From: Actinernus sp. WN-2022
Lineage: Eukaryota > Cnidaria > Anthozoa > Actiniaria > Actinernidae
DNA length: 64,000 bases
Assembly (NCBI GenBank): GCA_030867875.1
Contig: JAOWCC010000655.1
Location: 11,802,269-11,866,268 of the forward strand
Reading direction: 5' to 3'
Shown here: positions 48,726 to 64,000 of the stretch, in pieces
Layout: every line of letters starts with the position of its first letter
Position numbering within the stretch: the stretch's first letter is position 1
Translations under genes and position numbers: made by a program
Notes under the pieces: generated by a model
Told to the model about the DNA's origin: nothing
Seen by the model: only the letters and a program-made list of their open reading frames with translations
The model's database searches: none

Positions 48726-48726
48726 A

Positions 48727-49017: not shown

Positions 49018-49095
49018 AGTAGTATAGAGGGTGAGGGTACCGGACCATTTTCCATCATATGGTTTCTGATCTCATACCCCCACCCTATTATTTAT
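49018..49095. repeat. Putative left terminus of E3, foldback
   Basis: It begins AGTAGTATAGAGGGTGAGGG; the complementary arm is ATACCCCCACCCTATTA at about 49,074-49,091. Arms are about 20 bp, weaker than those of E1 and E2. The TTAAGTAGTATA start matches E2. The other terminus is not in the window, so the call is tentative. Confidence 0.5.
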
Positions 49096-49539
49096 CGATC
49101 GTATTTTTTATTCTTCTCAAGGTCAAGGTCAAGGTCGAATTCTCCATAACCGGTTTAACCAGTTCAATCTTTGGATGTCAAATTCTTGGAAATCTCCATA
49201 ACTGGTTTCAATCTTTGGATGTCTAAAGGCTTGATCTATAGTGATGTGTACGTATATTTTCGAAATGTGTTTGAACCAGCCGATTGATGGTTCTTCTCTT
49301 CGTTCTTCTCATACTATAGTATTCAACTTTTCATAGTTGCATTCTAGGCTATCCATTCTAATGGCTTCATTGCCTTGCCTGCTATCCGCTATTGCCATAT
49401 ATTGGCTTCTGCGAGTTTCTTCTATAGTATTTTCCTTTCTTTCTATTTCATAGTGCGTTCGAGGTATCCTGCATCTTCTCTATGTAATGGATGCTGGTGC
49501 ATGGTACTCTATATTTAATATCTAATATAGTAGTATAGG
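49096..49539. other. E3 left arm, non-coding
   Basis: AT-rich with a GGTCAAGGTCAAGGTC repeat near 49,121 and a partly repeated AACCGGTTTAACCAG / TCAATCTTTGGATGTC stretch. The region directly before 49,540 has TATTTAATATCTAATATAG, a likely promoter. It probably is the terminal inverted repeat. Confidence 0.5.
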
Positions 49540-50136
49540 ATGAACTGCAATTCAGAAATCCATGATGAGATGAAAGACTTTGGAGAGTTGTGTCCTTTCT
49601 GCAATGAGCGATTGATAGATTACGTACGCAAGAAAGAGAGTGAGTCGTGTTGTGGCAATACAGAGATAATTAATGATAATGGTATGTATGTTTGCAAAAG
49701 CTGTGGTGTAGTTCATTCATATCGTTTGGTGAATGGATATATCGATTACTACGAAAATAGGTACCGAATGAGACGTAAGTCTATCTACCATAGGAAATAC
49801 CATATTGACAATATATTCATTGCGAAATTTGATTTACGATATGGTGAGTGCATTGATATTCGTAGGATGTTCAATAAATTCGAAAGTGCTATTGATGTTA
49901 TATTGAAACGGAAGAGGTATCCAATACTAGATTTCGTGTTCTATAAGTTGTTCGAAATGAAGTTTCGCGAATCTGGAATCGATAACTATCGCATCCATAT
50001 GCAAAAGTGTACTAGGTACATATCGAAGATTACTGTTAAACGATATGTTAGGATATGGAAGAAGATCTGTGATATGAATGAATGGTTATACATAGAGACT
50101 CATAATGGCGTTTTTGCAAGAAGTGAAGATAATTGA
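49540..50136 (+). CDS. Zinc-ribbon transcription factor, VLTF3/TFIIB-like
   Basis: A 198-aa protein with two Cys pairs in front (CPFC at 19-22 and SCC..) and a ribbon ending CKSCGVVHSY at about 51-60, then a basic part rich in Tyr/Arg/His (YRMRRKSIYHRKYHIDNIF) and a helical tail. The ribbon resembles that of TFIIB, while the part after it recalls the VLTF3-type late transcription factors of large DNA viruses; I cannot separate these by eye. It would steer transcription of viral genes. It is the first gene after the left terminus, the same relative position as the TFIIB-like genes in E1/E2. Confidence 0.6.
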   Translation: MNCNSEIHDEMKDFGELCPFCNERLIDYVRKKESESCCGNTEIINDNGMYVCKSCGVVHSYRLVNGYIDYYENRYRMRRKSIYHRKYHIDNIFIAKFDLRYGECIDIRRMFNKFESAIDVILKRKRYPILDFVFYKLFEMKFRESGIDNYRIHMQKCTRYISKITVKRYVRIWKKICDMNEWLYIETHNGVFARSEDN

Positions 50137-50147
50137 TATGGCAATGA

Positions 50148-50645
50148 TCAACTAGTTGCGTACTTCTTGTTGTATCTCTCTCTGAATCTATCAACTAGTG
50201 GACATAGGTCACTAACTTGATCGTCCAACCAGTTCAACTCTAATGTAAATCTTTCGATGTCGAGTTCTTCTCCACGCAGATATGCCCTTATTTTATTCAA
50301 GATCTTCTGATATGATGTGTACGCAAATTTGCTCATTTCCGTCTTCCTATTGTAGTTTTTCATTTTTAGTAGTCCTTGAAGCAATAGTCCTGATCCCGAT
50401 ATTGTACCGAGAATGATTGGATTTAGTGTTATAGACCCAATGATTACACCTGTACTTGTGAGACCAATTGACGATAAGTGTAGAATTGTATTAACCTTCT
50501 TGAATCGTTTGTATGCTTGCTTGTGGTAGAAGCATTTTTTGTGGTAGTGAGAATACAGGTTTTTTAGCATTTCGACATCTGCTTCACTCAAGTCCTTGTC
50601 TATATGATTGAAGTTGAATATGTCTACTTTCAACGTCTTTGCCAT
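50148..50645 (-). CDS. Polinton helical membrane protein, 165 aa
   Basis: A helical, basic N-terminal part (LYSHYHKKCFYHKQAYKRF), two membrane helices at about 50-90 (LSSIGLTSTGVIIGSI and ILGTISGSGLLLQGL), and a charged tail. The architecture matches the 206-aa E1/E2 membrane proteins, which also sit beside the zinc-ribbon gene in convergent orientation. Function unknown. The start is preceded by ATAGCTATACGTTAC. It lies 11 nt downstream of the 386-aa gene on the same strand. Confidence 0.65.
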   Translation of the reverse strand: MAKTLKVDIFNFNHIDKDLSEADVEMLKNLYSHYHKKCFYHKQAYKRFKKVNTILHLSSIGLTSTGVIIGSITLNPIILGTISGSGLLLQGLLKMKNYNRKTEMSKFAYTSYQKILNKIRAYLRGEELDIERFTLELNWLDDQVSDLCPLVDRFRERYNKKYATS

Positions 50646-50656
50646 ATAGCTATACG

Positions 50657-51817
50657 TTACATAAATTGTTGATACATCTGTTTGTATTCGTCGTCGTCAA
50701 TCAAGCCATCGTTAGAAAGCTTATTGAGTATCTCGACGGCTTCGTTAGACAGTTCGATACTATTATTTCCAGCGTTTTTCGATGCTATTATTAACTCTAG
50801 TCTTTCACATAGCTCATTCGGGTTGTTGTAGTACTTTATTCGACTTTTGTTACAACCACCTGATTTTTTCGTTCCTAAGTCGATCTTACCACTTTTAGAC
50901 GTATATGGAGAGATTCCCGAGAGCTTAATCAGCTTGTTGAATATCCTTTGAGCATCATCAGTGTACAGTCTTCTAGGATTGTAGCGTTTCGTTAGCAACT
51001 CCATAAATGAATTATCGACCTTATGGTTTAGTATCTTCTTACCACTACCATTGTAAGCCTCTAATCTCATCTCTAATAATTTAGCTGGATCGATATACAA
51101 ATTTCCAAACGTATAATCGGACCCTATTTTTAGACCTGTGCCAGTCGTTTTCTTAGATGACTTTGGCGTTTCTATGACGTCCTCATCTGGTACGAATACG
51201 ACTTCCTTCTCTGGTGTCTTTAGTTTTCGCACTTCCTTCAAGTACTTGCTTGCTGCTAATTTTTGATTGCCTAGTATCTTTATTGTCGTGGGTGATTTAG
51301 ATGATTTGATTTGCTTGTTCAGTATCGTTATGGCATTCTGTATTAAGTATTCTGAAGGTATGTCTTTTAAGCTTGGATCGAACCCTAGTTTTTCTAGTCG
51401 TTTAGATTCTTGTGCTCCAAAAATTGGTTTTGTACCATCAATGGCTCCTTTGTCGTTCTCTTCGTCTTCATCTTCGTCTTCCTCGTAATGCGATGGCAGT
51501 TTACCAATCCACGATTCTAAGCCTTTAGTAGATCCTTGTGTTGAGATGGCTTCACTAAGTGTATCGATTGCTCCAGTGATGTTCTCTTGGTTTTCTTGTA
51601 GCTGTTCAATCATCTCATCTTGTTTCTTATCAGCCGATTTCTGCGCCTTTTCGACTGAAGCTGTTACGGGTTGGTATAGCTTTTCGCCAGCTTCTCGTAA
51701 TGATTGATCACCTAGCTTTTTATTGAGTAATCGTTTCTTTAAGATTTGCCTATTTTTCAAGAATTCGTTAATTAAGCTTGCTCTTTCTTCTACTGTCTTA
51801 ATAGTTCTGAACGACAT
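50657..51817 (-). CDS. Large coiled-coil protein, 386 aa (possible DUF8207-type C-terminus)
   Basis: The N-terminal half is coiled coil (about 5-110) with Lys/Glu/Gln-rich heptads, followed by an acidic linker EEDEDEENDKG. The C-terminal half has GSDYTFGNLYIDPAKLLEM and SFMELLTKRYNPRRLYTDDA, which loosely recalls the DUF8207-type domain of invertebrate Polintons. No function is assigned. The start lies next to ACGTATACATATTAG on the minus strand. Position between the membrane protein and packaging ATPase suggests a structural or scaffolding role, which is inferred. Confidence 0.55.
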   Translation of the reverse strand: MSFRTIKTVEERASLINEFLKNRQILKKRLLNKKLGDQSLREAGEKLYQPVTASVEKAQKSADKKQDEMIEQLQENQENITGAIDTLSEAISTQGSTKGLESWIGKLPSHYEEDEDEDEENDKGAIDGTKPIFGAQESKRLEKLGFDPSLKDIPSEYLIQNAITILNKQIKSSKSPTTIKILGNQKLAASKYLKEVRKLKTPEKEVVFVPDEDVIETPKSSKKTTGTGLKIGSDYTFGNLYIDPAKLLEMRLEAYNGSGKKILNHKVDNSFMELLTKRYNPRRLYTDDAQRIFNKLIKLSGISPYTSKSGKIDLGTKKSGGCNKSRIKYYNNPNELCERLELIIASKNAGNNSIELSNEAVEILNKLSNDGLIDDDEYKQMYQQFM

Positions 51818-51835
51818 ACGTATACATATTAGTTA
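51818..51835 (-). promoter_or_regulatory. Start-proximal palindrome, 386-aa gene
   Basis: ACGTATACATATTAG directly upstream of the start codon (minus-strand gene); contains GTATAC, related to the palindrome beside other starts. Confidence 0.4.
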
Positions 51836-51917
51836 CATAATTCGTTACTCTAAGTTAGCGTAACTTTTTGAAATCGTATGTAAATCACACGAAAACCCTC
51901 GAATTCTCATTCTCTAA

Positions 51918-52604
51918 CTACGTATTATGCACGTATAAACCGTCGAAGTTCTTTCGATACATCTCGGGAATATGCTTAGAAGTCTTATCCAACACCATGA
52001 AATCGAATGGTTCTATCGTAGCTTCTCGATATATGTCTTCGAATTGTTTCCGACTGATGTTTTTACAGTTATCATCAGCAATGTGTCTGATGTCCTTGTT
52101 ATCTAATCCGCCAAATAGAACGAAGCACTTAGTATTGCGTCGAATGTATTTTGGCACATCGTAATAGCTTTGACACAAGTAAATGCAGTTACAGTTCTTA
52201 TTTCTAGATAGCGAAAAGTATTCCTTAACGTTGTTCATATTTTTATTGTCGATCTTAATATCATCGAATACGATAACCTTATTAGCGTCATCATCTAAAT
52301 CTTCAACTGGTATGATGTCTTCTGGATTGCATAATTCGACATTACACGCATCGTCGTCGTCATCTAATTCCTCGTTAATGATATCATGGAATTCTTTTAT
52401 TAGACTGTACTTATCCTGATGAGGATTTAGAGTATGTATCTTACAAGAATCGTACTTCATCCATTTTAAAAGCATATTGGTAAGCAGATTCGTTTTACCT
52501 TGACCCGTACTACCAACTAGCATAAAATGGCAATCAGGAAGCAAGAAGTGATGTTTTGGTTTCTGACTTATTTTTTCAGTATCGTCAAAGTTGATTATAT
52601 TCAT
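51918..52604 (-). CDS. Genome-packaging ATPase (FtsK/HerA, A32-like), E3
   Basis: A 228-aa P-loop ATPase: Walker A GSTGQGKTN at 31-39, Walker B KVIVFDDI at about 109-116, and YLCQSYYD at about 145 for the following conserved motif. An Asp/Glu-rich insert (DDDDD at 81-85) lies between them. It powers DNA packaging into the capsid. The family is the same as the E2 ATPase but the sequences are far apart, in line with two lineages. It is divergent from the fibre-head gene across 27 nt holding GTACGTATAC. Confidence 0.85.
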   Translation of the reverse strand: MNIINFDDTEKISQKPKHHFLLPDCHFMLVGSTGQGKTNLLTNMLLKWMKYDSCKIHTLNPHQDKYSLIKEFHDIINEELDDDDDACNVELCNPEDIIPVEDLDDDANKVIVFDDIKIDNKNMNNVKEYFSLSRNKNCNCIYLCQSYYDVPKYIRRNTKCFVLFGGLDNKDIRHIADDNCKNISRKQFEDIYREATIEPFDFMVLDKTSKHIPEMYRKNFDGLYVHNT

Positions 52605-52631
52605 CTACTATAATGTACGTATACAATATAG
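52605..52631. promoter_or_regulatory. Bidirectional promoter, ATPase / fibre head
   Basis: 27 nt: CTACTATAATGTACGTATAC then AATATAG before the ATG. The ATACAATATAGATG stretch reappears exactly before the 46-aa gene at 60,792, which supports a promoter or start element. Confidence 0.55.
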
Positions 52632-53252
52632 ATGAGTTTTACGAAATTTGGAACGATTCGAACTGGAAGCCGCAATGAGTGCATGCATGAGCAAACACCA
52701 GTAAGAATAGTTAGTATTAATGCGAAAGAGATTTCACTCTTATGGCTTCAACGCGATACGGATTGGATGGATATACCCAATTACGAAATACAGCTAACAC
52801 CAAAAGGTACGAATATGATGAGACTATCATGCCGCCTATACATCTCAAACAACACTGGAGGAGGTAATTTTTGGTTCCGATGGGTTCTATTAACGCCAAC
52901 GCCAGTTCCAGGGCACCATTTACAAACGATTATTGGTGTAAGTAATTTACCAGATGCAGCAATTGGCTTGAGAACCAGATGTGCATTTGCGGCACAACCG
53001 CCAAGAGATCCAGAGACAGTCGTTTGTATTTCAGACGTCTCTTTTCATGAGAATTTCGGTAACGGCATCCTACACACGTATAAGCTGCAGTGTAAGATCA
53101 CTGATACAGGAACGATGGTATTGAATAGACTGTATAATGGCGCTAATGCGGCATGGAATGGATACGTGAAATCATCAATAATGGTTGAGGAAATCACAGG
53201 GATTACTAAAAAAGTTGCTCAAAATGGAATCAACGAATACGCATCAAACTAA
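52632..53252 (+). CDS. Stand-alone fibre-head-like protein
   Basis: A 206-aa protein that is paralogous over its whole length to the last ~175 residues of the next gene: both hold AKEIS.LW, IPNYEIQLTPK / IPHFSITISPK, MRLSCRLYIS / IRLSCTIYLG, N.WFRWV, HTYKLQ and NRLYN / NRIYN. The many alternating beta stretches suggest a jelly-roll or C1q-like trimer head, which is inferred. It lacks the collagen stalk. It may cap the same fibre or a shorter one. Preceded by the ATACAATATAG element. Followed by an AATCATATAATATA sequence before the stalked fibre gene. Confidence 0.65.
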   Translation: MSFTKFGTIRTGSRNECMHEQTPVRIVSINAKEISLLWLQRDTDWMDIPNYEIQLTPKGTNMMRLSCRLYISNNTGGGNFWFRWVLLTPTPVPGHHLQTIIGVSNLPDAAIGLRTRCAFAAQPPRDPETVVCISDVSFHENFGNGILHTYKLQCKITDTGTMVLNRLYNGANAAWNGYVKSSIMVEEITGITKKVAQNGINEYASN

Positions 53253-53255
53253 TGT

Positions 53256-53269
53256 AATCATATAATATA
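53256..53269 (+). promoter_or_regulatory. AATCATATAATATA promoter-like element, fibre gene
   Basis: A 14-nt sequence directly before the fibre gene; the identical 14-mer precedes the major capsid gene at 56,011-56,024. Two structural genes sharing it suggests a late-type promoter. Confidence 0.5.
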
Positions 53270-53273
53270 AGAG

Positions 53274-54887
53274 ATGAGTTACTCAATATTTGGAACGCTT
53301 TACAATGGTACGATAGAGCAAAAGGAAGGTAAGCGTGGACCAAAAGGCGATCAAGGAAGCCAAGGAAGCCAAGGGATTCGAGGAATGAAGGGCGATCAAG
53401 GAAGCCAAGGAATGAAAGGCGATCAAGGAGGCCAAGGGATTCGAGGAATGAAAGGCGATCAAGGAAGCCAAGGAATGAAAGGCGATCAAGGAGGCCAAGG
53501 GATTCGAGGAATGAAAGGCGATCAAGGAAGCCAAGGAATGAAAGGCGATCAAGGAGGCCAAGGGATTCGAGGAATGAAAGGCGATCAAGGAAGCCAAGGA
53601 ATGAAAGGCGATCAAGGAGGCCAAGGGATTCGAGGAATGAAAGGCGATCAAGGAAGCCAAGGAATGAAAGGCGATCAAGGAAGCCAAGGAATGAAAGGCG
53701 ATCAAGGAAGCCAAGGAATGAAAGGCGATCGAGGAAGCCAAGGGATTCGAGGGTCTGGGCCTGGGTCAAGTGTTATGCATAGTAGTCTAACATTCAATTG
53801 TGGCAATTTCCTTATGAAGTCTGGTAATTGGGCATCATCGAGCAGTGTAAGCTCATTTATGGTTGTATATGACGCATACTCTATGAATAACATCACTCCA
53901 GAACATCGAGGTTTTAGGATCCTAGAGACTTTTAAATCGAACTCAACAGAAACGTTGACTATGACTATACCAAAAAATGATAATACGACTTTAGGGTTAA
54001 AAGGCAACAGCACATACACAGTTCGGGTCGAAGCTTATGCAAACAACATTGGATCCATAATACTAAGCTCTTTATCAATTGAAGAGAATTTGACTTTCAT
54101 ATCAAACACGATAAAAAGTGGAAGGATAGGATCTACAAACACTGCTTTCCAAGAGCTAAGCATAACAACATCTGCCAATAGCACAGGTAAACTATCATTT
54201 ACTTTGAGTCATAATCAGTCAACCAATCAGCTAATAACTATCTATGTTGCAATCATTGCTGGAGCATTAGATGCAAATACTTTTGTGAATCCTACTGTCT
54301 TCGATGATAATGAGTACATTATTGAACAAAGAGTGCAAGAAGTGGTTCCTATTAGGACAGTCGCTTATATAGCAAAGGAAATTTCGAATTTATGGAGTCA
54401 TGCAGACATGGAGTGGGGAGACATACCACATTTCTCCATCACAATATCTCCCAAGGAAGCAACGAATTTAATTCGATTATCGTGTACGATTTACCTTGGA
54501 TGTGACGCTGGAGGAGCTAATGTGTGGTTTCGATGGGTCGTAACTACAGGTCAAGGATTACTGGCTTATGTCAGTACGAATTCATTACCAAATAATATCC
54601 TTCAAACCCGTAACAGAGCTAGCTTTGGCTCTCAATTAGCCATCAATCCAGAAACTCTTGCCTGCGTGTCCCATACTGGGTTCCACGTCCCATTTAATAA
54701 AACCCCACATACATATAAATTACAGATAAAAGTGAAAGACACAGGAACCGTTACAATCAATAGAATATACAACAATGGAAACGCTAAGTGGAATAGTTAC
54801 GTTACCTCAAGTATGATTTTAGAAGAAGTCTCAGGGATCGCGAGGAGTTTCGCTAGTAATGGGGATGTGATATGTTCATCAGAATAA
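53274..54887 (+). CDS. Collagen-stalked fibre protein
   Basis: A 537-aa protein. Residues ~1-18 form a short N-terminal anchor; ~19-162 are an uninterrupted Gly-X-Y collagen-like stalk built from KGDQGSQGM and KGDQGGQGIRGM units; ~165-340 are a Ser/Thr/Asn-rich beta domain; the last ~190 residues are a head paralogous to the gene before. The shape of anchor, triple-helical stalk and globular head fits a receptor-binding fibre. Its place just before the penton gene fits an adenovirus-like vertex spike. KGD repeats could in principle bind integrins; that is speculation. The stalk is encoded by 63-bp DNA repeats, so stalk length may vary. Confidence 0.8.
   Translation: MSYSIFGTLYNGTIEQKEGKRGPKGDQGSQGSQGIRGMKGDQGSQGMKGDQGGQGIRGMKGDQGSQGMKGDQGGQGIRGMKGDQGSQGMKGDQGGQGIRGMKGDQGSQGMKGDQGGQGIRGMKGDQGSQGMKGDQGSQGMKGDQGSQGMKGDRGSQGIRGSGPGSSVMHSSLTFNCGNFLMKSGNWASSSSVSSFMVVYDAYSMNNITPEHRGFRILETFKSNSTETLTMTIPKNDNTTLGLKGNSTYTVRVEAYANNIGSIILSSLSIEENLTFISNTIKSGRIGSTNTAFQELSITTSANSTGKLSFTLSHNQSTNQLITIYVAIIAGALDANTFVNPTVFDDNEYIIEQRVQEVVPIRTVAYIAKEISNLWSHADMEWGDIPHFSITISPKEATNLIRLSCTIYLGCDAGGANVWFRWVVTTGQGLLAYVSTNSLPNNILQTRNRASFGSQLAINPETLACVSHTGFHVPFNKTPHTYKLQIKVKDTGTVTINRIYNNGNAKWNSYVTSSMILEEVSGIARSFASNGDVICSSE
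53380..53750. repeat. In-frame 27/63-bp repeats encoding the collagen stalk
   Basis: About five copies of a 63-bp unit (GAAGCCAAGGAATGAAAGGC, GATCAAGGAGGCCAAGGGAT, TCGAGGAATGAAAGGCGATCA-type) and three 27-bp units, nearly identical. Such DNA homogeneity points to recent expansion. Confidence 0.9.
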
Positions 54888-54904
54888 TCTAACCAAACTG
54901 TATA

Positions 54905-55645
54905 ATGCAAACTACGTTATTCTTTGATAGTAAGAAAGGATCTGGTTCATCTGAAAACTTCACGACATACTTCAATCCTCCATTGGAGCTAGATATTACG
55001 AAAAACTATCAAATCTCGTTAATCAATGCATCTATGTGGTACTCTTGGTACAACATAACGAGTGCAAATAACAAGTTCAAATACTACAATGGTACAGCTT
55101 GGAAGACGATAACATTATCGCCAGGAGCATACAACGTAATTGACATAAACGACACTATGAAGCACCATATGAAGCAAAATAGCGATTGGGACGTTGCTAA
55201 CAGTAAGTACTATGTCGATATTAAACCTAATTACAACACACTGAAGTCTATGATTGAGATACGAAATGGTTATAAAGTGGATTTCACTATTGACGAAAGT
55301 TTTAGGACGATACTTGGTTTCGAATCTAAGATAGTTCAAGGCAACGGCTTTCACGATAGCGATAAGATTGTGCAAATCACGGAGGTCGATACTATTCAAG
55401 TACACTGCGATCTAGTAACAGATTCTTACATAAATGGCAGTACAAGTTCGGTCATCTACTCATTCGTTCCATCGGTTCCTCCAGGTTACTTGATCAACAT
55501 CCATCCTAACCAACGATTCGATATGAACATATCGAAAAGATCGATTAACAGTATATCGTTCTCGCTTAGAGATCAAAGTGGTAATTCGATAAGAATGAAT
55601 AATGAGAGAGTTACGTATTACATCCATCTTAGTGAGATTGTGTAA
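54905..55645 (+). CDS. Penton-like minor capsid protein, E3
   Basis: A 246-aa single jelly-roll type protein. It opens with TLFFDSKKGSGSSENFTTYF and the strand pair ITKNYQISLINASMWYSWYN, contains SPGAYNVIDINDT and ILGFESK, and ends with ISFSLRDQSGNSIRMNNERV. These are the conserved blocks of Polinton penton proteins, which occupy the capsid vertices and would hold the fibre. 17 nt separate it from the fibre gene. Intact. Confidence 0.85.
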   Translation: MQTTLFFDSKKGSGSSENFTTYFNPPLELDITKNYQISLINASMWYSWYNITSANNKFKYYNGTAWKTITLSPGAYNVIDINDTMKHHMKQNSDWDVANSKYYVDIKPNYNTLKSMIEIRNGYKVDFTIDESFRTILGFESKIVQGNGFHDSDKIVQITEVDTIQVHCDLVTDSYINGSTSSVIYSFVPSVPPGYLINIHPNQRFDMNISKRSINSISFSLRDQSGNSIRMNNERVTYYIHLSEIV

Positions 55646-55650
55646 CCAAT

Positions 55651-55998
55651 ATGTATATGCTATTAACGAGAGAACGATATACCAAAAGGAAAGTCATTGG
55701 TGGAAACCTCATTGGGAACGTATTCGACAAAGCAAAGAGTACGCTTTCAACAGCTAGCAAGATAATAACGAGACCCATTAATGCTTTAAAAAATAGATTG
55801 CTAAAACCCGTTATTACTAAGGCTCTTCCATATGTTAAACAGAAAGCCATCAATGTTGGCACTAAAGCGATCCTTCAAAAAGTAAAGCAGGGCGTTAGAG
55901 ACGTTTCGTCAAATCCAGAGGTTCGGAAAGTCTTGAATGACCGGTCGAGAGCTATCTTATCGAATCTTATTGCTGGAAGTGGCATGAAACGATTGTAG
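55651..55998 (+). CDS. Small basic core-type protein, 115 aa
   Basis: A strongly basic, amphipathic protein (RERYTKRKVIGG, then alternating Lys/Arg and hydrophobic residues, ending AGSGMKRL). The position between penton and hexon-like genes matches that of adenoviral core proteins such as VII/X or VI; it may bind DNA or line the capsid. The early KRKVIGGN and late GSGMKR could be protease cleavage sites of the GG/G-x type; this is inferred. A second ATG two codons in is an alternative start. Confidence 0.6.
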   Translation: MYMLLTRERYTKRKVIGGNLIGNVFDKAKSTLSTASKIITRPINALKNRLLKPVITKALPYVKQKAINVGTKAILQKVKQGVRDVSSNPEVRKVLNDRSRAILSNLIAGSGMKRL

Positions 55999-56010
55999 TG
56001 ACTTTTGTAT

Positions 56011-56024
56011 AATCATATAATATA
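56011..56024 (+). promoter_or_regulatory. AATCATATAATATA promoter-like element, capsid gene
   Basis: Identical to the 14-mer at 53,256; it overlaps the first base of the capsid start codon. Confidence 0.45.
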
Positions 56025-57442
56025 TGACTGAAGTAATTAGCCAATATTTTCAATTCGATGAATCGAACATTATCGATAACTCAACTACGAAATTCGAATA
56101 TATCGAATACCTTCCAAGAGACTCTAATAACATGGATAAAGATGGCCAAAGGATCATCGAGACTCGAGATGAAGACGTATACCTGCTCCCACATAAGGCT
56201 ATGTTGGAGGTGCGTGGTAAGCTGCAAACAGCTGCTAATGCTGATTATAATGCAACAGATATTGTATCGCTTGTGAATAATGCGTGGAGTCTATTTTCAA
56301 GTGCTCAATATCAGATTAACAACCAAATAGTAGAAAGTGTGAATGACTACCTACCAGAAGCAAGCACAATTCTAAACACAGTCATGTTTTCTGATGACTA
56401 TAGCCGTAGTACTGCTAGTAATATGCTTTGGTTTAGAGATACATCAACGGGTACACCAACTTTAAAGTACACAACTGCAATTGCTGCAGTCGATGATGCT
56501 GCTAATGCAGCTACCGTTCGAACAGGAACGCAAGCCTTAGTTGTTGCATACACACAAGACCAAACAGCTAATCTAGGTTTCACTGCTCGACAGGCTATCA
56601 CGACAGGAGCTAAACAAGTATCCCTGCTTCTACCACTATCGCAAGTTTTCGGATTCTGTAAGGATGTAGATACTGTGTTTCGGAGTGTCAAACATACGCT
56701 TATCCTAAACAGAGCAACAGCAAACCAGTATATCATGAAAGATAATGCTGCAGGCGTTGGTAAATTTAAGATTACTCACCTATCACTATGGATGCCTAAA
56801 GTCGTTCCTTCACTAGAAATTCAATCATACATTGATGCCAAACTAGTAAGTGGTTACATAAAGGACCTATACTTCGAGCAGGTACGTGTATACAGAACGA
56901 TGTTCCAAGCCGTTGAAACGAACCCAACATGGAGAATTACAACACAGCCAGGTAGCGAACTTCCAAGACATGTCTTCATTGCATTACAGTCTAGTGATCG
57001 TCATCCAACAGCTAATGCACAGAATGTCAATAATATGATCTTCGATAATGGGAACCTAACGAGAATCAGTGTTCGAATCAATAGTGTACAACATCCAGAA
57101 AGAGAAGTAGAATGTAACTTCACTCCAGCTAATAGGAACTATAATAGATCGTACATGATGTTCATGGATGCCGTTAACAAATACCAAGATACCGATACTG
57201 GTAGTCAGCTTAGTGTTGAGGATTGGGCATCATTGTATCCAATACATCATTTCGACGTTAGTAAGCATTCAGAGCAGCTGAAAACAAGCATGGCTGATAT
57301 TGAAGTCCGATTTACCCTAGGTGGGAACTTCAGAAACATAGCTAACAATGCTGATATACCTTATTATGTTTATGCCGTAATCCTATCCGATAGGCACTTA
57401 CAACTACAAGGCTTGTCTGGTAGAATGAATGTAATCGTGTAA
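56024..57442 (+). CDS. MCP: Major capsid protein (hexon-like, double jelly-roll), E3
   Basis: A 472-aa protein of the Polinton major capsid type (PY). Visible blocks: YFQFDESNIIDNSTTKFEYI, DVYLLPHKAMLEVRGKL, VSLVNNAWSLFSSAQYQIN, ITHLSLWMPKVVPS and the final YYVYAVILSDRHLQLQG. Length fits trimer-forming hexon-like shell proteins. It lies at the centre of the virion block after penton and core protein and before the membrane-active proteins and protease, as in adenovirus-like gene order. Intact. Confidence 0.85.
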   Translation: MTEVISQYFQFDESNIIDNSTTKFEYIEYLPRDSNNMDKDGQRIIETRDEDVYLLPHKAMLEVRGKLQTAANADYNATDIVSLVNNAWSLFSSAQYQINNQIVESVNDYLPEASTILNTVMFSDDYSRSTASNMLWFRDTSTGTPTLKYTTAIAAVDDAANAATVRTGTQALVVAYTQDQTANLGFTARQAITTGAKQVSLLLPLSQVFGFCKDVDTVFRSVKHTLILNRATANQYIMKDNAAGVGKFKITHLSLWMPKVVPSLEIQSYIDAKLVSGYIKDLYFEQVRVYRTMFQAVETNPTWRITTQPGSELPRHVFIALQSSDRHPTANAQNVNNMIFDNGNLTRISVRINSVQHPEREVECNFTPANRNYNRSYMMFMDAVNKYQDTDTGSQLSVEDWASLYPIHHFDVSKHSEQLKTSMADIEVRFTLGGNFRNIANNADIPYYVYAVILSDRHLQLQGLSGRMNVIV

Positions 57443-57480
57443 ATTTTATCTAATTATACTACATATACTACATATACGAA

Positions 57481-57948
57481 ATGAGCTATATTAGAACAGG
57501 ATTGAGTCTAAGCGAATCTCAAAAAGAATCAATTAAGAATGCTTACATCAATAAGAAAACAGTTAGCTTGAGATTGAACAACAATCAACTAACAGGAAGC
57601 GACTTTCTAGGACTGACTAAAGCGCAACGTAAGAAGGTGGTTGAAGCTAAAAGAGGAATGTCTGGAGTCCAACTAAAACTTAGTAAGACGCAAGTCTCAA
57701 AACAAGGCGGATTTTTAGGTGGATTGGGTAATTTAGTGAAAATGATTGCTCCTATGTTCTTGAAGAAAATCCTACCAGCTCTTGGAATGGCTGCTGCAAC
57801 TGGAGCAATATCTGGTTCTGTCTCTAAGGCTGTACAAGGAAAAGGCATTAAGAAAAAGAGATGTAGACCAAAAAAGAAGGGCAAAGGCTTGATACTAGGA
57901 CCAAATTCGCCTTTTAAGGGCATACCATTACTTGGAGCAATTCTCTAA
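57481..57948 (+). CDS. Membrane-active basic protein A (adenoviral pX/VI-like by position), 155 aa
   Basis: It begins with SLSESQKESIKNAYINKKTV and a repeated LSKTQ motif (LKLSKTQVSKQGG), then a glycine-rich hydrophobic segment at about 80-120 (FLGGLGNLVKMIAPMFLKKI), then a highly basic tail (KKKRCRPKKKGKGL). The LSKTQ..GGF arrangement is common in Polinton proteins beside the capsid gene; functions such as membrane disruption or DNA condensation are inferred. The gene after it is a paralogue. Preceded by ACTACATATACTACATATACG. Confidence 0.65.
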   Translation: MSYIRTGLSLSESQKESIKNAYINKKTVSLRLNNNQLTGSDFLGLTKAQRKKVVEAKRGMSGVQLKLSKTQVSKQGGFLGGLGNLVKMIAPMFLKKILPALGMAAATGAISGSVSKAVQGKGIKKKRCRPKKKGKGLILGPNSPFKGIPLLGAIL

Positions 57949-57986
57949 TCATATTCAAATTATTGTCTAACGATATCATATATAGA

Positions 57987-58502
57987 ATGCCAACGAATTA
58001 TGTAGAAACATCATTAAAGTTGTCTGAGGCACAGAAACGTAAGATAGCTTTAGCTGTTCAAAACAAGACATCGACTACCATTAGACTATCATCTAGCGAC
58101 TATCATGGTAGCGATAAGATTAAATTGACTAAGCAGCAAATCGATAGAATCCATAAAGCTAAATCGAAAAACGTCGGAGTAGATATTAAACTCAGTAAGA
58201 CGCAGTTAAGTAAGCAAGGCGGGTTCATTGGGGCTTTGCTTGGTGGCTTAGCGGCAAGCCTGCTTCCCAATCTCTTAGGCGGTATCTTCGGTAAAGGAAT
58301 CGCTCTACCAGGTACTAATCCAAAGTCAAGTGGAAGAGGATTCAATCTTTCAGCCCTACGACCACCACCGTTTATTGGATCTTGGAATTCTGATGGTACG
58401 ATTGGTTATGGAGTAAAAAAAAAGATCTCAAGAAAGAAAACAGCCAAAGGCCTCGTGCTTCCAGGGACAATCCTAAAGCGTCCATATTACGGAACGCGCT
58501 AA
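57987..58502 (+). CDS. Membrane-active basic protein B, 171 aa
   Basis: A paralogue of the preceding gene, with the same order: SLKLSEAQKRKIALAVQNKT, IKLSKTQLSKQGG, then FIGALLGGLAASLLPNLLGG, then a Gly/Arg/Pro-rich basic tail. Start set at MPTNYVETSL, which follows a TATCATATATAG element; the frame is open eight codons further upstream from a TTG. The GKG-IALPGTN and AKGLVLPGT repeats in the tail suggest proteolytic sites, which is inferred. It lies before the protease gene, which may process it. Confidence 0.65.
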   Translation: MPTNYVETSLKLSEAQKRKIALAVQNKTSTTIRLSSSDYHGSDKIKLTKQQIDRIHKAKSKNVGVDIKLSKTQLSKQGGFIGALLGGLAASLLPNLLGGIFGKGIALPGTNPKSSGRGFNLSALRPPPFIGSWNSDGTIGYGVKKKISRKKTAKGLVLPGTILKRPYYGTR

Positions 58503-58534
58503 GACCACTGAGCAACATCGATATCGATAGCATT

Positions 58535-58954
58535 ATGAAAAAACTAAAGATCGCCAACTACATAGGTGCTTACAGTAAAGATATGCTACCTGATAGGATC
58601 AATAATGACGGGTGTGTAGTAATCAATATTCAAGACTATTTTAAAGGCGATGGTACTCACTGGGTTGCCGTATATAACAATCATGATAATAACTACATCG
58701 AACACTTCGATTCATTCGGCCTATTGCCAGCAGAAGAGGTAATAGAGCTTATGGAAACAAGCAACAAACAAATAGAGTACAATAGCTCACAGATTCAAGA
58801 TATGGATAGCATTATGTGTGGTTATTATTGCATATTCTACATTCTAGAACGCTCAAAGGGTAGAAAACCTATCGACATCTTGTTAGACTTTCAGTTCAAA
58901 CCATCTATGTTCAATGAATTGCTTATACAGCACTTCGCTTACGATATTATGTAA
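58535..58954 (+). CDS. PRO: Adenain-type cysteine protease
   Basis: A 139-aa protease with the C5/C48-like catalytic set: HWVAVY with His42, HFDSFG with Asp59, Gln88 for the oxyanion hole, and MCGYYC with Cys95 as nucleophile. All residues stand at family spacing. The enzyme matures capsid and core proteins in Polinton and adenovirus-type virions. Start at MKKLKIANYIG; the following Gly-Ala-Tyr-Ser and Asp-Met-Leu-Pro motifs are usual near the N-terminus. Intact. The gene is 29 nt from the PLA2 gene. Confidence 0.9.
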   Translation: MKKLKIANYIGAYSKDMLPDRINNDGCVVINIQDYFKGDGTHWVAVYNNHDNNYIEHFDSFGLLPAEEVIELMETSNKQIEYNSSQIQDMDSIMCGYYCIFYILERSKGRKPIDILLDFQFKPSMFNELLIQHFAYDIM

Positions 58955-58983
58955 CGATATTATGTAACGATATTGTATACGAA

Positions 58984-59844
58984 ATGACTAAGATATATTG
59001 TTTAAGACAAAAGAAACAAACTGAGACGAAAGATGAGCATATCGTAAAGACTCAAAATGGAAGGACTCGTCTGGTAGGTGCATGTGTAGAATGCGGAAGT
59101 CAAAAGTCGAAATTCGTGAAATCTACACAAGGCGGTAGTATGTTGCCAGGAGCACTAGCTATTTCAGCTGGAATACCACTTCTTGCTGGAGCCGCCGCAT
59201 TATCAATGGTTCCAGGTAGTGGAAAGCTATTTTCGACACTTGCTAAGGGTGCTACACAGGCAATAGGTAAGAAGATAAGAAGCAAAGCTGCCGATTTCAT
59301 CCAAAAAGAAGGTCGAACCATATTGAATCTAGCATCTAAGAAAGTTCGTGGTGGCCAGATACAACATCCAATGAGTATGTATACTGACGTAACAGATCCA
59401 GCATCCGAATTCTATGATGATCATATGAAAACTATTAAGAAAGGAGGTAAGTTAGACATTCATAAAGCAATATTAAAGGTTGCACCAAAAAAGGGATTCA
59501 CGCTACCAGGTCATCATTATACAGGACCTGGGAATCCCTTAGAAAATCAATTGACTTATGATAAGACAGGTCGAATATTAGAGATTTACGATAAGCCAAC
59601 TGGCAAAACTGATGCTGTGAGTATGCAACACGATGTCGATTATTCTATCTGTGATGATGACGTCAAATGCAAAAATGAAGCTGATCGAAAAATGGTCAAA
59701 TCATTAGACGAAATTCCATGGAAGGATCGCCAATGGGGTCATGCCTTAGCAAGGAATGCTATCGCGACTAAAGCAAAGCTTGGAATGGGTGCTAAGAAGC
59801 CAAAAAACGAAAAAAGCCGTCGAGTGAAGAAAACTGGCAAGTAA
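58984..59844 (+). CDS. Parvovirus-type phospholipase A2 with N-terminal zinc ribbon
   Basis: A 286-aa protein. Residues 5-45 resemble a DUF5679-like zinc ribbon, but the second Cys of the first pair is Gln (CLRQ), leaving CVEC at 34-37. A hydrophobic stretch at about 54-78 may insert into membranes. The PLA2 domain has the Ca-binding loop YTGPGN at 179-184 and the catalytic QHDVDY at 215-220. Similar domains in parvovirus capsids help the particle leave endosomes. The C-terminus is Lys-rich. The last 49 nt overlap the integrase frame and include the slippery heptamer at 59,802. Confidence 0.85.
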   Translation: MTKIYCLRQKKQTETKDEHIVKTQNGRTRLVGACVECGSQKSKFVKSTQGGSMLPGALAISAGIPLLAGAAALSMVPGSGKLFSTLAKGATQAIGKKIRSKAADFIQKEGRTILNLASKKVRGGQIQHPMSMYTDVTDPASEFYDDHMKTIKKGGKLDIHKAILKVAPKKGFTLPGHHYTGPGNPLENQLTYDKTGRILEIYDKPTGKTDAVSMQHDVDYSICDDDVKCKNEADRKMVKSLDEIPWKDRQWGHALARNAIATKAKLGMGAKKPKNEKSRRVKKTGK

Positions 59845-60767
59845 AACTAGCAGATGAATTGCATAGACCAATAAGACGTAAATTTACTCGGCGGCGTGTT
59901 ATAGCTAATCACATTGATGAAATATGGTGTTCTGATCTCGTTGAGATGCAACAGTTTAGCAAATGGAATAAGGGCTATCGATACCTTCTCATGGTTCTAG
60001 ACGTCTTTAGCAAATATGGTTGGATCGTACCTTTGAAAGATAAGAAAGGCGAAACAGTTATGAAAGCTTTCCAAACTATCTTCGAGGAAGGAAGAATACC
60101 AAAATATCTATGGGTCGATAAGGGTAAGGAGTACTATAATAAGCATGTGAAAGAGCTATTGGACAAGCATAGTATACAAATGTATTCAACTGAGAATGAA
60201 GAAAAGTCTTCTGTTTGCGAGAGATGGAACCGTACGATAAAGACGAAGATGTGGAAACAATTTACTGTCCAAGGTAATACGCAGTATTTAGATATGCTGC
60301 CTAGAATATTGAAACAGTACAATAGTATGAAACATTCAAGCATCAAAATGCCTCCTATTGAAGCATCTAAGAAGAAGAACGAAGGAACTGTGTACTTTAA
60401 TCTATATGGCAATATGGAGTCATTACAATCGAAACCAAAATTTAAGGTTAGCGATAAGGTTCGAATAAGCAAGTACAAGCGCAAGGTATTCGACAAAGGT
60501 TATACTCCGAATTGGACTGAAGAAGTGTTTACGATTGATAAAATCCAGTATACGAACCCTATTACTTACAAATTGAAGGACTTGAATGGTGAAGAAATAC
60601 AAGGTTCTTTCTACGAACCTGAACTATCGAAAGCGGTTCAAGAAATCTTCAGAATCAACAGAGTCATCAGAAGGAACTACAAAAAGAAGCAAGCTCTAGT
60701 ATCGTGGAAAGGGTACAGCGACGAATTCAATAGTTGGGTGCCATTCAAGAATCTAGATGCGATATGA
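59796..60767 (+). CDS. INT: Retroviral-type integrase with C-terminal chromodomain
   Basis: The catalytic core has the D,D-35-E set: WCSDLVEMQ, then LMVLDVFSKYGW region with KDKKGE and LWVDKGKEYYN, then SVCERWNRTIKTK. It ends in a chromodomain (KKQALVSWKGYSDEFNSWVP), which could direct insertion to marked chromatin. The conserved N-terminal part (LADELHRPIRRKF) lies upstream of any in-frame ATG: the first ATG codes for the Met in VEMQ after the first catalytic Asp. So it must start by frameshifting from PLA2, splicing, or a non-AUG codon such as TTG at 59,859. The start given is the first codon after the upstream stop. Confidence 0.85.
   Translation, partial: EAKKRKKPSSEENWQVKLADELHRPIRRKFTRRRVIANHIDEIWCSDLVEMQQFSKWNKGYRYLLMVLDVFSKYGWIVPLKDKKGETVMKAFQTIFEEGRIPKYLWVDKGKEYYNKHVKELLDKHSIQMYSTENEEKSSVCERWNRTIKTKMWKQFTVQGNTQYLDMLPRILKQYNSMKHSSIKMPPIEASKKKNEGTVYFNLYGNMESLQSKPKFKVSDKVRISKYKRKVFDKGYTPNWTEEVFTIDKIQYTNPITYKLKDLNGEEIQGSFYEPELSKAVQEIFRINRVIRRNYKKKQALVSWKGYSDEFNSWVPFKNLDAI
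59802..59808 (+). promoter_or_regulatory. Canonical -1 ribosomal frameshift heptamer A AAA AAC
   Basis: In the PLA2 frame the codons are CCA AAA AAC, so the heptamer is in the correct phase for -1 slippage. The -1 frame is the integrase frame; its last upstream stop (TAA) is at 59,793-59,795, only 6 nt before the heptamer, and the PLA2 stop is at 59,842-59,844. No downstream pseudoknot was identified by eye. Confidence 0.6.
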
Positions 60768-60791
60768 AAATAATATAAGCATACAATATAG

Positions 60792-60932
60792 ATGCATGCT
60801 AAATTAATCAAATTACTTGATAGCATAAGAAAAGTAATCGATACTTGCGAAGCACTACTGAAAAGATTTAAACGTATATTGTCTTCTATACGTATATTGT
60901 CTTCTATACGTATATATGGTAGAACCGAATAA
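60792..60932 (+). CDS. Small basic amphipathic protein, 46 aa
   Basis: The ATG at 60,792 follows ATACAATATAG, the exact element before the gene at 52,632. The frame encodes an amphipathic Lys/Arg/Leu/Ile-rich peptide (KLIKLLDSIRKVIDTCEALL) ending in two ILSSIRI repeats, which come from the promoter repeat of the next gene. It overlaps that gene by 17 nt. It may be a membrane-active peptide or only a leader; weakly supported. Confidence 0.4.
   Translation: MHAKLIKLLDSIRKVIDTCEALLKRFKRILSSIRILSSIRIYGRTE
60871..60915 (+). promoter_or_regulatory. Duplicated TATACGTATA element
   Basis: The unit TTGTCTTCTATACGTATA occurs twice in tandem just before the ATG at 60,916, preceded by a third, partial AACGTATA. 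It is the clearest repeat of the start-proximal palindrome in E3. Confidence 0.6.
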
Positions 60933-61110
60933 CGATAAAAAGAAAAGGAAGACTAGATGCGACAAAATATATGAATGTAGCAATGACCGAGTTAAGGCGT
61001 GGTTCAATACCCATAAATTCTATTGCCTATTATGTGAGAAAGAGATGCATCCAGCTTCGAAATATACACATCTGAAATCTAAGAAGCACATAAACGCACA
61101 TCGAAAATAA
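60916..61110 (+). CDS. Small C2H2-type zinc finger protein, 64 aa
   Basis: A basic N-terminus (NNDKKKRKTRC) followed by one finger FYCLLCEKEM..KYTHLKSKKH with CxxC and HxxxxxH spacing, close to U1-type C2H2 fingers. Such single-finger proteins are found beside the polymerase gene in Polintons as I recall. It may bind DNA or RNA. Its start overlaps the TATACGTATATATG element. Confidence 0.65.
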   Translation: MVEPNNDKKKRKTRCDKIYECSNDRVKAWFNTHKFYCLLCEKEMHPASKYTHLKSKKHINAHRK

Positions 61111-61127
61111 AAAACATATAGATTCGA

Positions 61128-61199
61128 TTAAACGTACGACGACACTTAAACGTATGACGACACTTAAACGTATGACGACACTTAAACGTATGACGACAT
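61128..61199. repeat. 18-bp tandem repeat before the polymerase gene
   Basis: Four copies of TTAAACGTATGACGACAC (the first with C for T) end 9 nt before the polymerase start. Each contains AACGTATGACG, resembling half of the TATACGTATA palindrome. It may be an upstream control element. Confidence 0.65.
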
Positions 61200-61207
61200 A
61201 TTGTAGT

Positions 61208-64000
61208 ATGCCTGAAAATCAGATGAAAACGAATGAAATTATTATCTCAACTAATAGTAATATGAATGCTAGCGATCTTAAGAAATTGTCTAAATCGAAA
61301 CTTATCGAATTGCTATTGAAACGAAATACTATAAGACGTCCAAAAATTGAAATCGTAGATGACTACAAACCAGTTCCTACTCCACGAAGAAGCGTTAAGG
61401 ACATGATCGAACGCTACGAGGAAAACATCATCCTACCACCAACCCGATTCAGAGATGACTACAAACCAATCCCAGCTCAGAGGACCATTAAGAATACAAC
61501 CAAAAGACCGGTTCCTGCTCCAAGAACTAAGATCACGCAACGAGATAGAGCTATGAAGGGTTCAATCAGATCATTTGAAGTCGCCATTAAGAACAATAAA
61601 GACCCACTAGTACAACTAGCCACTACGAGAAAAGGCATTCAGAATCAATTCAAAACACTACTAATTGATACTAACGGCTATAAATTCGTCGAAACAATAA
61701 GGGTTACATTCGAAAAGCAATTAGATGAAGACAAGACAACAATCAAAACGGCTTATTTCAATAGCACTGCATTCACAGTAATCAATGAAACCAACATCGT
61801 GGAAGGACTACAATCATCCAAACAACAAATACTAAATAAAATAGCGCAATGGATCTCAGAGGGTTCAGGATGGACTATAGAGACAATCAACAAACATTAT
61901 ATCAACATAGTCAAGTATGAGCCTATGAAAGGAAGCAGCTACATTGAACTACCATCAGAACTTCAAAATTCAGCTAAAGGCTTGATCAATATGAAAAACA
62001 TCGACGACGAATGCTTCAGATGGTGCCACGTAAGGCACTTGAATCCACAGGAAAAATATCCTCAGAGAATCAAGAAGAGCGATAGAAAATCCGCAAAGGA
62101 CCTAGACTATTCAAATATCGAATTTCCAGTGACTACCAAGCATTACAATAAAATCGAGAAGCAAAATAACATAAGCATCAACGTATTTGGATACGAAAAT
62201 AAGAAGCCATATCCACTATTCGTATCGAAAGAAAAGTACGATGATCATATGGATCTGTTATTGATTACTGAAGATACGAACAAACATTACGTTCTAATAA
62301 AAGACTTCAATAAATTCATGTACAACCAAACGAAGCACAAGAATAGAAAGCACTTCTGTAGACATTGCTTACAATGCTTTGGATCTGAAAGAGTCCTAAT
62401 CAACCATAAAGAAGTATGTATCGAAGTAAATGGTGAGCAAGCAATCCAAATGCCTACCAAATCAAATAATATGCTACGATTTAAGAACTACAACAAGCAA
62501 CTACCAGCTATATTCGTTATCTATGCAGACTTCGAAAGCATAACACGCAAAATCGATGGATGCATGCCTAACAATAACAACTCATATACTGAAGCATATC
62601 AACAGCATATCGACTGTAGTTATGGATACAAACTAGTTTGCCGTTATGATGATCGATACAGCAAGCCATTGAAAACGTATCGAGGAGAGAACAGTGCATA
62701 CAAATTCCTCGAAGAAATGCTCAATGAAGTAAAATGGTGTCAAGATACGATAAAGAGCCATTTCAATAAAGACATGGTGCTGACTAAGAAAGACAAACTA
62801 GACTTCAAAGATGCTACCAAATGCCATATATGCGATATCGAATACCTAGTAAATGACATCAGAGTTCGAGATCACTGCCATATCACTGGAAAATACAGAG
62901 GATCATCTCATCAAATATGCAATCTCAACTTCGACATAAAAGCTGAAGAAATTAAGATCCCAGTCTTCTTTCACAATCTTCGAGGATATGACTCTCATCT
63001 AATTATGCAACAGATCGGCAAAGTCATCAAGAATCATCCATACATAGACAAGAATGGTAATACAAAATACCATAAGCTCAACGTAATCCCTAATAATATG
63101 GAGAAGTACATGGCATTCATGCTAGGCAATAACCTCACATTTCTCGACAGTTTCCAATTTATGGGTCAATCACTTAGCACATTAGCAACTAATCTTCCAG
63201 AAGACAAATTCATATACACCAAGAAAGACTTCGCAAACGACGAGCAATTCGAATTAGCAAAAAGGAAAGGAGTCTATCCATACGACTTCATGGATGACTT
63301 CGAAAAATTCGACTACGAATGCCTTCCTAAGAAAGAAGACTTCTATAGCATCATCAATGATGAGCACATATCGAATGCTGACTACGAGCATGCATTAAAA
63401 GTATACGATACCTTCGAAATGACTTCTATGGGTGATTACCATGACCTTTACCTAACAATCGACGTACTTCTCTTGACAGACGTCTTCGAAAATTTCAGAT
63501 CTATGTCGATTTCGAATTACGGCCTCGACCCATGTCATTATTTTACGACTCCTGGTTTAAGTTTTGATGCGATGCTCAAAATGACTAAAGTCGAATTAGA
63601 GTTGATCACTGACATAGATATCTACCAGTTTATTGAGAAGGGCATGAGAGGTGGCACTAGTTACATAGCCCATAGATACGCTAAAGCAAATCACGAATAC
63701 CTAAAAGATTACGATAAAGACGCTCCAAATAGCCATATAATCTACCTCGATGCTAATAACCTCTACGGCTACGCCATGAGCGAATACCTACCTACTGGTG
63801 GATTCCGATGGCTAACCATAAAAGAGATCGAAAATACAAATCTAGCTAAGTATGATGAGCATAGCAAAAAAGGACTCATAATTGAGGTTGATTTAGAATA
63901 CCCTAAATCTATACATGACGATCATAACGACTATCCATTAGCAGTAGAAAAGATGTGCATAGATAACGACATGCTATCAGACTATTGCAAAGACATCCAA
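61208..64000 (+). CDS. POLB: Protein-primed type family-B DNA polymerase (partial, 3' end outside window)
   Basis: 931 codons are open to the end of the window. In order: a SAP-like helix pair (SDLKKLSKSKLIELLLKR, ~20-37); repeats of DDYKPVP/PAPRT-type (~55-115); a C2H2-like finger (~384-405); ExoI YADFES (~439); an endonuclease-VII-like zinc site (CHIC..DHCHITGKYRG..CN, ~539-575); ExoII HNLRGYDSHL (~588); FLDSFQFM (~645); YLTIDVLLLTDVF (~746); polymerase motif A IYLDANNLYGYAM (~844). The PLAVEK sequence near the end precedes the missing B and C motifs. It replicates the element using a terminal protein primer. The start follows the 18-bp repeats. Confidence 0.9.
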   Translation, partial: MPENQMKTNEIIISTNSNMNASDLKKLSKSKLIELLLKRNTIRRPKIEIVDDYKPVPTPRRSVKDMIERYEENIILPPTRFRDDYKPIPAQRTIKNTTKRPVPAPRTKITQRDRAMKGSIRSFEVAIKNNKDPLVQLATTRKGIQNQFKTLLIDTNGYKFVETIRVTFEKQLDEDKTTIKTAYFNSTAFTVINETNIVEGLQSSKQQILNKIAQWISEGSGWTIETINKHYINIVKYEPMKGSSYIELPSELQNSAKGLINMKNIDDECFRWCHVRHLNPQEKYPQRIKKSDRKSAKDLDYSNIEFPVTTKHYNKIEKQNNISINVFGYENKKPYPLFVSKEKYDDHMDLLLITEDTNKHYVLIKDFNKFMYNQTKHKNRKHFCRHCLQCFGSERVLINHKEVCIEVNGEQAIQMPTKSNNMLRFKNYNKQLPAIFVIYADFESITRKIDGCMPNNNNSYTEAYQQHIDCSYGYKLVCRYDDRYSKPLKTYRGENSAYKFLEEMLNEVKWCQDTIKSHFNKDMVLTKKDKLDFKDATKCHICDIEYLVNDIRVRDHCHITGKYRGSSHQICNLNFDIKAEEIKIPVFFHNLRGYDSHLIMQQIGKVIKNHPYIDKNGNTKYHKLNVIPNNMEKYMAFMLGNNLTFLDSFQFMGQSLSTLATNLPEDKFIYTKKDFANDEQFELAKRKGVYPYDFMDDFEKFDYECLPKKEDFYSIINDEHISNADYEHALKVYDTFEMTSMGDYHDLYLTIDVLLLTDVFENFRSMSISNYGLDPCHYFTTPGLSFDAMLKMTKVELELITDIDIYQFIEKGMRGGTSYIAHRYAKANHEYLKDYDKDAPNSHIIYLDANNLYGYAMSEYLPTGGFRWLTIKEIENTNLAKYDEHSKKGLIIEVDLEYPKSIHDDHNDYPLAVEKMCIDNDMLSDYCKDIQ

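Follow-up and report, generated by a model that had tools for sequence, protein, structure and literature searches.

A predicted -1 ribosomal frameshift signal at the phospholipase A2-integrase junction of an Actinernus Polinton

Introduction

The DNA considered here is a stretch of 64,000 nucleotides, called the window, from the anthozoan Actinernus sp. WN-2022 (assembly GCA_030867875.1, contig JAOWCC010000655.1, positions 11,802,269 to 11,866,268 of the forward strand). Open reading frame (ORF) calls and Pfam matches indicate that it holds part of a Polinton/Maverick element. The subject of this work is a junction within that element, where a gene encoding a phospholipase A2 (PLA2) domain is followed, in the -1 frame, by the integrase gene, and where an original prediction, made from the letters of the window, had placed a programmed -1 frameshift.

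The PLA2-integrase junction

The features at the junction are as follows.

58984-59844, plus strand: PLA2 ORF, 0 frame, ATG start, 286 amino acids
59793-59795, plus strand: TAA stop of the -1 frame, upstream of the slip site
59796-60767, plus strand: integrase, -1 frame, with rve core and C-terminal chromodomain, open, 323 amino acids
59802-59808, plus strand: putative slippery heptamer A AAA AAC, 0-frame codons CCA AAA AAC
59809-59815, plus strand: spacer of 7 nt, gap-free in 28 distinct haplotypes
59816-59828, plus strand: 5' arm of a predicted 13-bp stem, from folding and covariation
59842-59844, plus strand: 0-frame stop of PLA2, within the hairpin loop
59883-59895, plus strand: 3' arm of the stem, within the integrase-only coding sequence
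59946-59948, plus strand: first AUG of the integrase frame, downstream of the inferred first catalytic Asp

The 0-frame ORF begins with a zinc-ribbon-like DUF5679 (PF18930, E 5e-9) and carries a PLA2 domain of the parvovirus VP1 type (PF08398, E 1e-7). The ORF in the -1 frame matches rve (PF00665, E 6e-11) and a chromodomain (PF00385, E 9e-6); an rve integrase with a chromodomain is a Polinton/Maverick trait, and the element in the window possesses it. The heptamer has the form X XXY YYZ in the 0 frame, with Z other than G, and the conserved protein of the -1 frame has no start codon of its own in the window. AAAAAAC occurs nowhere else in the PLA2 ORF and is one of two on the plus strand of 49501-61000. 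Across the 13 ORFs of the element, seven slippery heptamers lie in phase; a -1 frame longer than 24 codons is found at two of them, 58415 (179 codons) and 59802 (321 codons), and a 13-bp stem at a spacer of 5-9 nt occurs at 59802 alone, the best stem at the other six being 6 bp.

According to the original prediction, A AAA AAC stood in the PLA2 phase, six bases past the stop that opens the -1 frame; this frame was the integrase, and no ATG preceded the conserved N-terminus of that protein. Each of these points was borne out, the last within the window, where the integrase frame has its first ATG at 59946. To place the catalytic residues, a profile of 25 integrases was compared with the integrase of prototype foamy virus (PFV; 3l2q), and the match begins with profile position 56 (Lys59 of the window protein) at residue 140. 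Gapless extension of this match sets Asp47 of the window integrase at PFV Asp128 (D128), which we take to be the first catalytic residue. An integrase started at the AUG at 59946 would begin four residues past Asp47 and would therefore lack the inferred first catalytic Asp.

The downstream stem

Folding of 59809-59900 predicts a 13-bp stem that starts 7 nt past the heptamer, within the range of 5-9 nt downstream at which a stimulatory RNA structure is expected. The fold has an energy of -24.2 kcal/mol and a z-score of -3.24, and one of 200 shuffles was equally stable. Within 49501-61000 (plus strand, span of at most 92 nt), it is the sole stem of at least 13 bp. This putative stimulator stem is what is new beyond the original prediction, which had proposed folding the region for a pseudoknot: the 13-bp stem was found, and the loop pairing that was checked is kept in 13 of 25 haplotypes only. 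Three loop-to-downstream pairings of 6-7 bp were found, two of them free of GU pairs. One of these two, 59859-59864 with 59946-59951, was rejected as a pseudoknot, its six pairs being broken in 11 haplotypes, with one undetermined. A search of 59700-60000 against Rfam gave no match.

Synonymous recodings, with codons drawn from the element's own usage, produced a stem of at least 13 bp at a spacer of 5-10 nt in 3 of 1000 cases. For the 3' arm, 13 pairs were reached in 35 of 20000 recodings of the window, 47 of L117 and 63 of L119, and 12 pairs in 14 of 20000 for L071 and 126 of 20000 for L025; in the divergent family described below (L085, L086), 13 pairs were reached by about 600 of 20000. 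The 3' arm thus pairs beyond what the codons it encodes would constrain.

Copies in the host genome

The host genome (1.39 Gb, 1772 contigs) contains at least 40 copies that are 95-100% identical to window positions 59500-60764, 39 of them along all 1265 bases (best 40 of 417 candidates), and the heptamer is kept in 40 of these 40 DNA-found copies. Protein searches returned more than 6000 first-look candidates each, of which the best 118-126 were scored. The best matches from one DNA and four protein searches, a non-random set, gave 112 junction loci (L015-L126); L073, L084 and L103 were removed as repeat fetches of L026, L018 and L083, leaving 109 distinct copies, many of them near-identical. 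A AAA AAC stands in phase in 105 of the 109 and A AAA AAU in one (L055), a total of 106. Among these in-phase copies, all 13 stem pairs are present in 98 and 12 of 13 in the other eight. Within this genome, the proposed check on conservation of the heptamer and the frame relation thus came out in favour of the prediction.

Twelve copies with equal integrase scores are spread over 8 Mb of contig C635 (about 140.2-148.1 Mb), and 21 places elsewhere are 100% identical, which points to recent amplification. Relative to the window, L024 and L026 show patchy divergence along PLA2 and integrase, the near-identical parts differing by copy, a pattern expected from recombination or gene conversion between copies.

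Covariation and selection

Covariation was measured on 28 distinct haplotypes from this one host genome, L108-L110 being excluded for want of an in-phase heptamer. Stem cells are paired in 98.4%, and 11 cells over three pairs are changed on both sides, compared with 2.5 in shuffles and above every shuffle. Covariation scores 0.190 in the alignment and 0.123 in shuffles, none of 500 shuffles reaching the observed value, and six controls slid along the sequence reach at most 0.054; a test on 23 haplotypes agrees with that on 28. Two of the double changes belong to a divergent family (L085-L087, L093, L094, L105, L107, L111-L114), in which, relative to the window, 59817-59894 changes from C-G to G-C and 59821-59890 from C-G to U-A with 13 pairs intact. 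The third, from G-C or G-U to A-U at 59826-59885, is found in L071 alone. In the divergent family, the 0-frame stop is relocated to a UGA within the 5' arm, and L117 and L119 use a different one again; heptamer, 7-nt spacer and helix therefore stay in place while the end of the PLA2 product varies between families.

Both the PLA2 and the integrase frames are under purifying selection, the ratio of nonsynonymous to synonymous substitution rates (dN/dS) being about 0.03-0.13. For the integrase-only part, dN/dS is 0.03-0.12 against five copies, including 0.07 against L024 (dN 0.019, dS 0.267). For PLA2, it is 0.08-0.13 against four copies, including 0.08 against L026 (0.029, 0.36) and 0.12 against L027; the PLA2 of L024 has one change, which is synonymous. 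In the overlap, the four changes of L027 are silent in the integrase frame, and each alters an amino acid in the PLA2 frame. Neither frame appears to be in decay.

Relatives at the protein level

Database searches, at the protein level only, returned 5115 relatives of the integrase and 1359 of PLA2, and the best 120 of each were listed. Among these, PLA2 tails commonly finish ...PKN[V/G]KSRRVKKTGKKN, and integrase heads often read KKRKKPSSEENWQ. With a pattern that permitted K or R and N or S at the site, a placement was obtained for 106 of the 120 PLA2 tails; K-N stands there in every one of the 106, where 15-32% would be expected from the integrase-frame residues alone. Several of the 14 unplaced tails also have KN; P0125, P0139, P0142, P0153, P0177 and P0187 do not. 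Where KK in the -1 frame coincides with KN in the 0 frame, only A AAA AAC or A AAA AAU can encode both. Among 23 integrase-frame segments, 18 are compatible with KN and hence with the site, and P0244 permits A AAA AAA. In 16 decoded clusters, the integrase frame appears open back to an M that would decode as an ATG within PLA2 (CAATGG-like); clusters of the P0021 type have a frame open to such an ATG and retain the slip site.

No DNA of the relatives was found in IMG/VR, phage or plasmid sequences, and 13 pattern matches in IMG/VR gave no integrase or PLA2 by tblastn. A search of genome contigs yielded a broken-up, distant Polinton-like element (L001) in a contig catalogued under a Bathymodiolus symbiont genome, with no PLA2 seen beside the integrase; it is perhaps contamination by host DNA. 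A U UUA AAC heptamer in P0054 and P0064 was considered and dropped, as the protein sequence does not force it.

Alternative explanations

A fused product could also arise through transcriptional slippage, in which RNA polymerase would add an A in the run of six so that some mRNAs encode an in-frame fusion. The site is a homopolymer, the extra A of copy L070 gives an open fused frame, and the residues of several fused database proteins (such as P0004, P0005 and P0010) appear to fit one added A in the run. However, six A is a short run for polymerase slippage, which would also leave unexplained the fixed 7-nt spacer, the covarying stem and the in-phase C or U at the end of the run in 106 of 109 copies; this origin is very unlikely. 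Splicing of an upstream exon onto the integrase frame could use donor-like GTRAG sequences in PLA2 at 59267, 59447 and 59617. Since the integrase frame is open only from 59796 and conservation of its residues begins at about 59811, the acceptor must fall within about 59796-59850, where a scan for YAG finds a single one (59850), with 28% pyrimidines in the preceding 18 nt. The heptamer and the stem would again be unexplained, and the ORFs of intact vertebrate Mavericks are described as intronless in the accessible text of PMC8097293, so that splicing is exceedingly unlikely.

Separate initiation of the integrase, at a non-AUG codon, at the AUG at 59946, through reinitiation beyond the PLA2 stop or, in some relatives, at an AUG within PLA2, is favoured by the many integrase-only proteins in databases and by an upstream in-frame ATG in L110, and internal initiation would be conceivable in the 16 decoded clusters. 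In the window, however, there is no in-frame AUG before 59946, where a start would cost the inferred first catalytic Asp, and the next AUG past the PLA2 stop (59854) is in the wrong frame. The leading M of integrase-only database proteins may be a GTG or TTG start; some of these M residues stand where relatives have Leu or Val, as a bacterial-type gene caller accepting TTG or GTG would give. Independent translation of the integrase is accordingly rated as scarcely credible. A frame break by mutation or assembly error in a dying element might be read from the stop codon in the -1 frame of L022, the altered heptamer of L108 and the indels of L109 and L110. The same frame relation is nevertheless present in 105 of 109 distinct copies (L070 set aside), both frames are under purifying selection, the stem shows compensatory changes, and the fused L070 lies on the same contig, C635, as copies fetched alongside it that have six A; decay or misassembly is a negligible prospect.

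Several observations weigh against a frameshift signal at this junction. Three of the 109 copies lack an in-phase site: L108, with its altered heptamer, and L109 and L110, in which indels shift the frame relation with integrase frames still open (330 and 337 amino acids), L110 having its upstream ATG and no in-phase site. In L070 (C635:140361021), one of the 105 copies counted with A AAA AAC, seven A yield a single PLA2-integrase frame of 622 amino acids, and 31 of the best 120 relatives listed carry both domains in one predicted protein. In P0080 and P0099, no canonical heptamer can be encoded at the site, and in P0054 and P0064 U UUA AAC or AAU is permitted and not forced by the protein. Stem pair 59822-59889 is an A-C mismatch in L025, L027, L091, L096 and L097, and L053, L071 and L118 have each lost one stem pair. 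The covarying DNA comes from one host genome, the double changes represent few independent events, two of them in one family, and 111 of 500 shuffles had at least as many doubly changed pairs (3), and likewise 111 at least as many pair types (8). Folding energy, a weak test beside the stronger counts of stem pairs in recodings, was equal or lower in 46 of 1000 synonymous recodings, and the sole pseudoknot pairing checked of the three candidates is not conserved. Decayed copies are also under-sampled, because the fetched copies are the best-scoring matches.

Proposed mechanism

Taken together, the heptamer, the spacer, the covarying stem and the selection on both frames strongly support the predicted -1 frameshift linking PLA2 to the integrase, and the sequence makes the junction very probably a -1 programmed ribosomal frameshift signal, with A AAA AAC as the inferred place of slippage. 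Ribosomes translating PLA2 would meet the 13-bp stem while on A AAA AAC; most would stop a few codons on and release PLA2 alone, and a minority, with the stem exerting tension, would slip back one base, read on in the -1 frame and produce a PLA2-integrase fusion. Slippage of this kind would give the integrase a start and tie its amount to that of PLA2. More loosely, it could set the ratio of PLA2 to integrase, and it may keep the integrase attached to a capsid-associated protein.

Since VP1, the parvovirus protein with this type of PLA2 domain, is a component of the capsid, a fusion could bring the integrase into the particle. The original prediction likewise had the fusion made at a fixed ratio and the integrase placed in virions. 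Such a Gag-Pol-like strategy, in which frameshifting sets the proportion of integrase that a virion-associated PLA2 protein carries into the particle, is a tentative suggestion that we consider possible without favouring it.

The remainder of the window

Further genes of the element were recognised as follows.

51918-52604, minus strand: packaging ATPase, A32-like (PF04665, E 3.2e-5)
56024-57442, plus strand: double jelly-roll capsid protein (PF21738, E 2.5e-22)
58535-58954, plus strand: adenain/Ulp1-like protease ORF, weak match (PF02902, E 0.003; PF00770, E 0.05; both below the Pfam cut-off)
61154-64000, plus strand: long ORF of 949 amino acids, cut by the window end; Endonuclease VII-like region (E 3.5e-4, below the cut-off)

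The long ORF is probably the N-terminal part of a protein-primed DNA polymerase B (PolB); an Endonuclease VII-like domain is given for Maverick POLB in the accessible text of PMC5803895. The 336 amino acids just past the window end, compared on their own, gave no Pfam match. A second in-phase heptamer, A AAA AAA at 58415-58421, lies near the 3' end of ORF 57987-58502, and its -1 frame is the protease ORF; the best nearby stem has 4 bp, and the protease ORF has an ATG of its own (58535). An ORF with collagen repeats (53274-54887), perhaps a fibre-like protein, has a C-terminal part that by eye resembles the upstream ORF 52632-53252.

A scan of 45000-64000 for terminal repeats gave only two weak pairs, 26-32 nt long and 77-78% complementary; the element's right end falls outside the window. 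About 125 copies of a 72-bp AT-rich tandem repeat occupy 39359-48393 and stop about 1 kb short of the Polinton's first listed ORF. By eye, the ORFs of 1-9213 and 23462-31464 resemble those of other viral-type elements, and the two regions contain similar ORF pairs, such as 354 and 342 amino acids, and 162 and 223 amino acids with NVT..DHTVYFD; an ATPase-like ORF with GPTNCGKT lies at 30231-30878 and ankyrin-like ORFs at 6249-8040. Fragmented ORFs of a long interspersed nuclear element (LINE) type, with endonuclease and reverse transcriptase, were likewise seen by eye on the minus strand of 32218-35614.

Relation to known systems and significance

The best-known cases of programmed -1 frameshifting are those of RNA viruses, retroelements and bacterial insertion sequences. 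As in the retroviral gag-pol layout, the Polinton junction would lengthen an upstream protein by an enzyme part containing an rve integrase. It also shares with retroviral gag-pro and gag-pol signals the X XXY YYZ heptamer, the 5-9 nt spacer and a downstream RNA structure. Unlike retroviruses, the Polinton is a DNA element without reverse transcriptase, its upstream ORF encodes a PLA2-domain protein rather than Gag, and its stimulator is a 13-bp stem with a loop of 51-60 nt and no supported pseudoknot.

The rules for -1 signals in the accessible text of PMC7618472, namely X_XXY_YYZ with Z not G in eukaryotes, a spacer usually of 5-9 nt and a stem-loop or pseudoknot, describe the junction in its heptamer, 7-nt spacer and stem. 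A_AAA_AAC is among the most shifty heptamers on mammalian ribosomes according to the available part of PMC5009743, which also describes insertion sequences of the IS1 and IS3 families in which frameshifting fuses an upstream ORF to a catalytic domain. Those sequences are bacterial and their upstream partner is generally a DNA-binding protein, whereas the Polinton is a eukaryotic viral-type element. The part of this frameshifting review that was available contains no mention of Polinton or Maverick.

The nearest precedent in the accessible literature is a remark, in the accessible text of PMC11071296, on a possible -1 slippery site found with KnotInFrame near the 3' end of some adintovirus penton ORFs. 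This site belongs to the same broad group of elements and is likewise a predicted -1 event; it differs in lying in another gene and giving an alternative C-terminus, with no stem covariation reported in that text. The Sf Maverick, whose capsid-like CAP protein with a PLA2 domain is described in PMC5803895, also combines a parvovirus VP1-type PLA2 with an rve/chromodomain integrase in one element, and in the portion available its PLA2 and integrase ORFs are not linked by frameshifting, unlike those of the window element. A PLA2-integrase frameshift in Polintons was not found in the literature that was accessible, which included few subscription papers, so that an earlier notice is possible.

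Polintons are integrating DNA viruses near the ancestry of many eukaryotic DNA viruses, and a covariation-backed signal for producing the integrase from the PLA2 gene would extend -1 frameshifting to this kind of virus. Such a signal would account for an integrase without a start codon, and it suggests how the enzyme could be dosed and possibly packaged; we know of no test of integrase dosing or packaging in Polintons. If the Gag-Pol-like strategy holds true, incoming virions would bring their own integrase, and the integrase and its packaging by a translational route would both be common to these DNA viruses and retroviruses.

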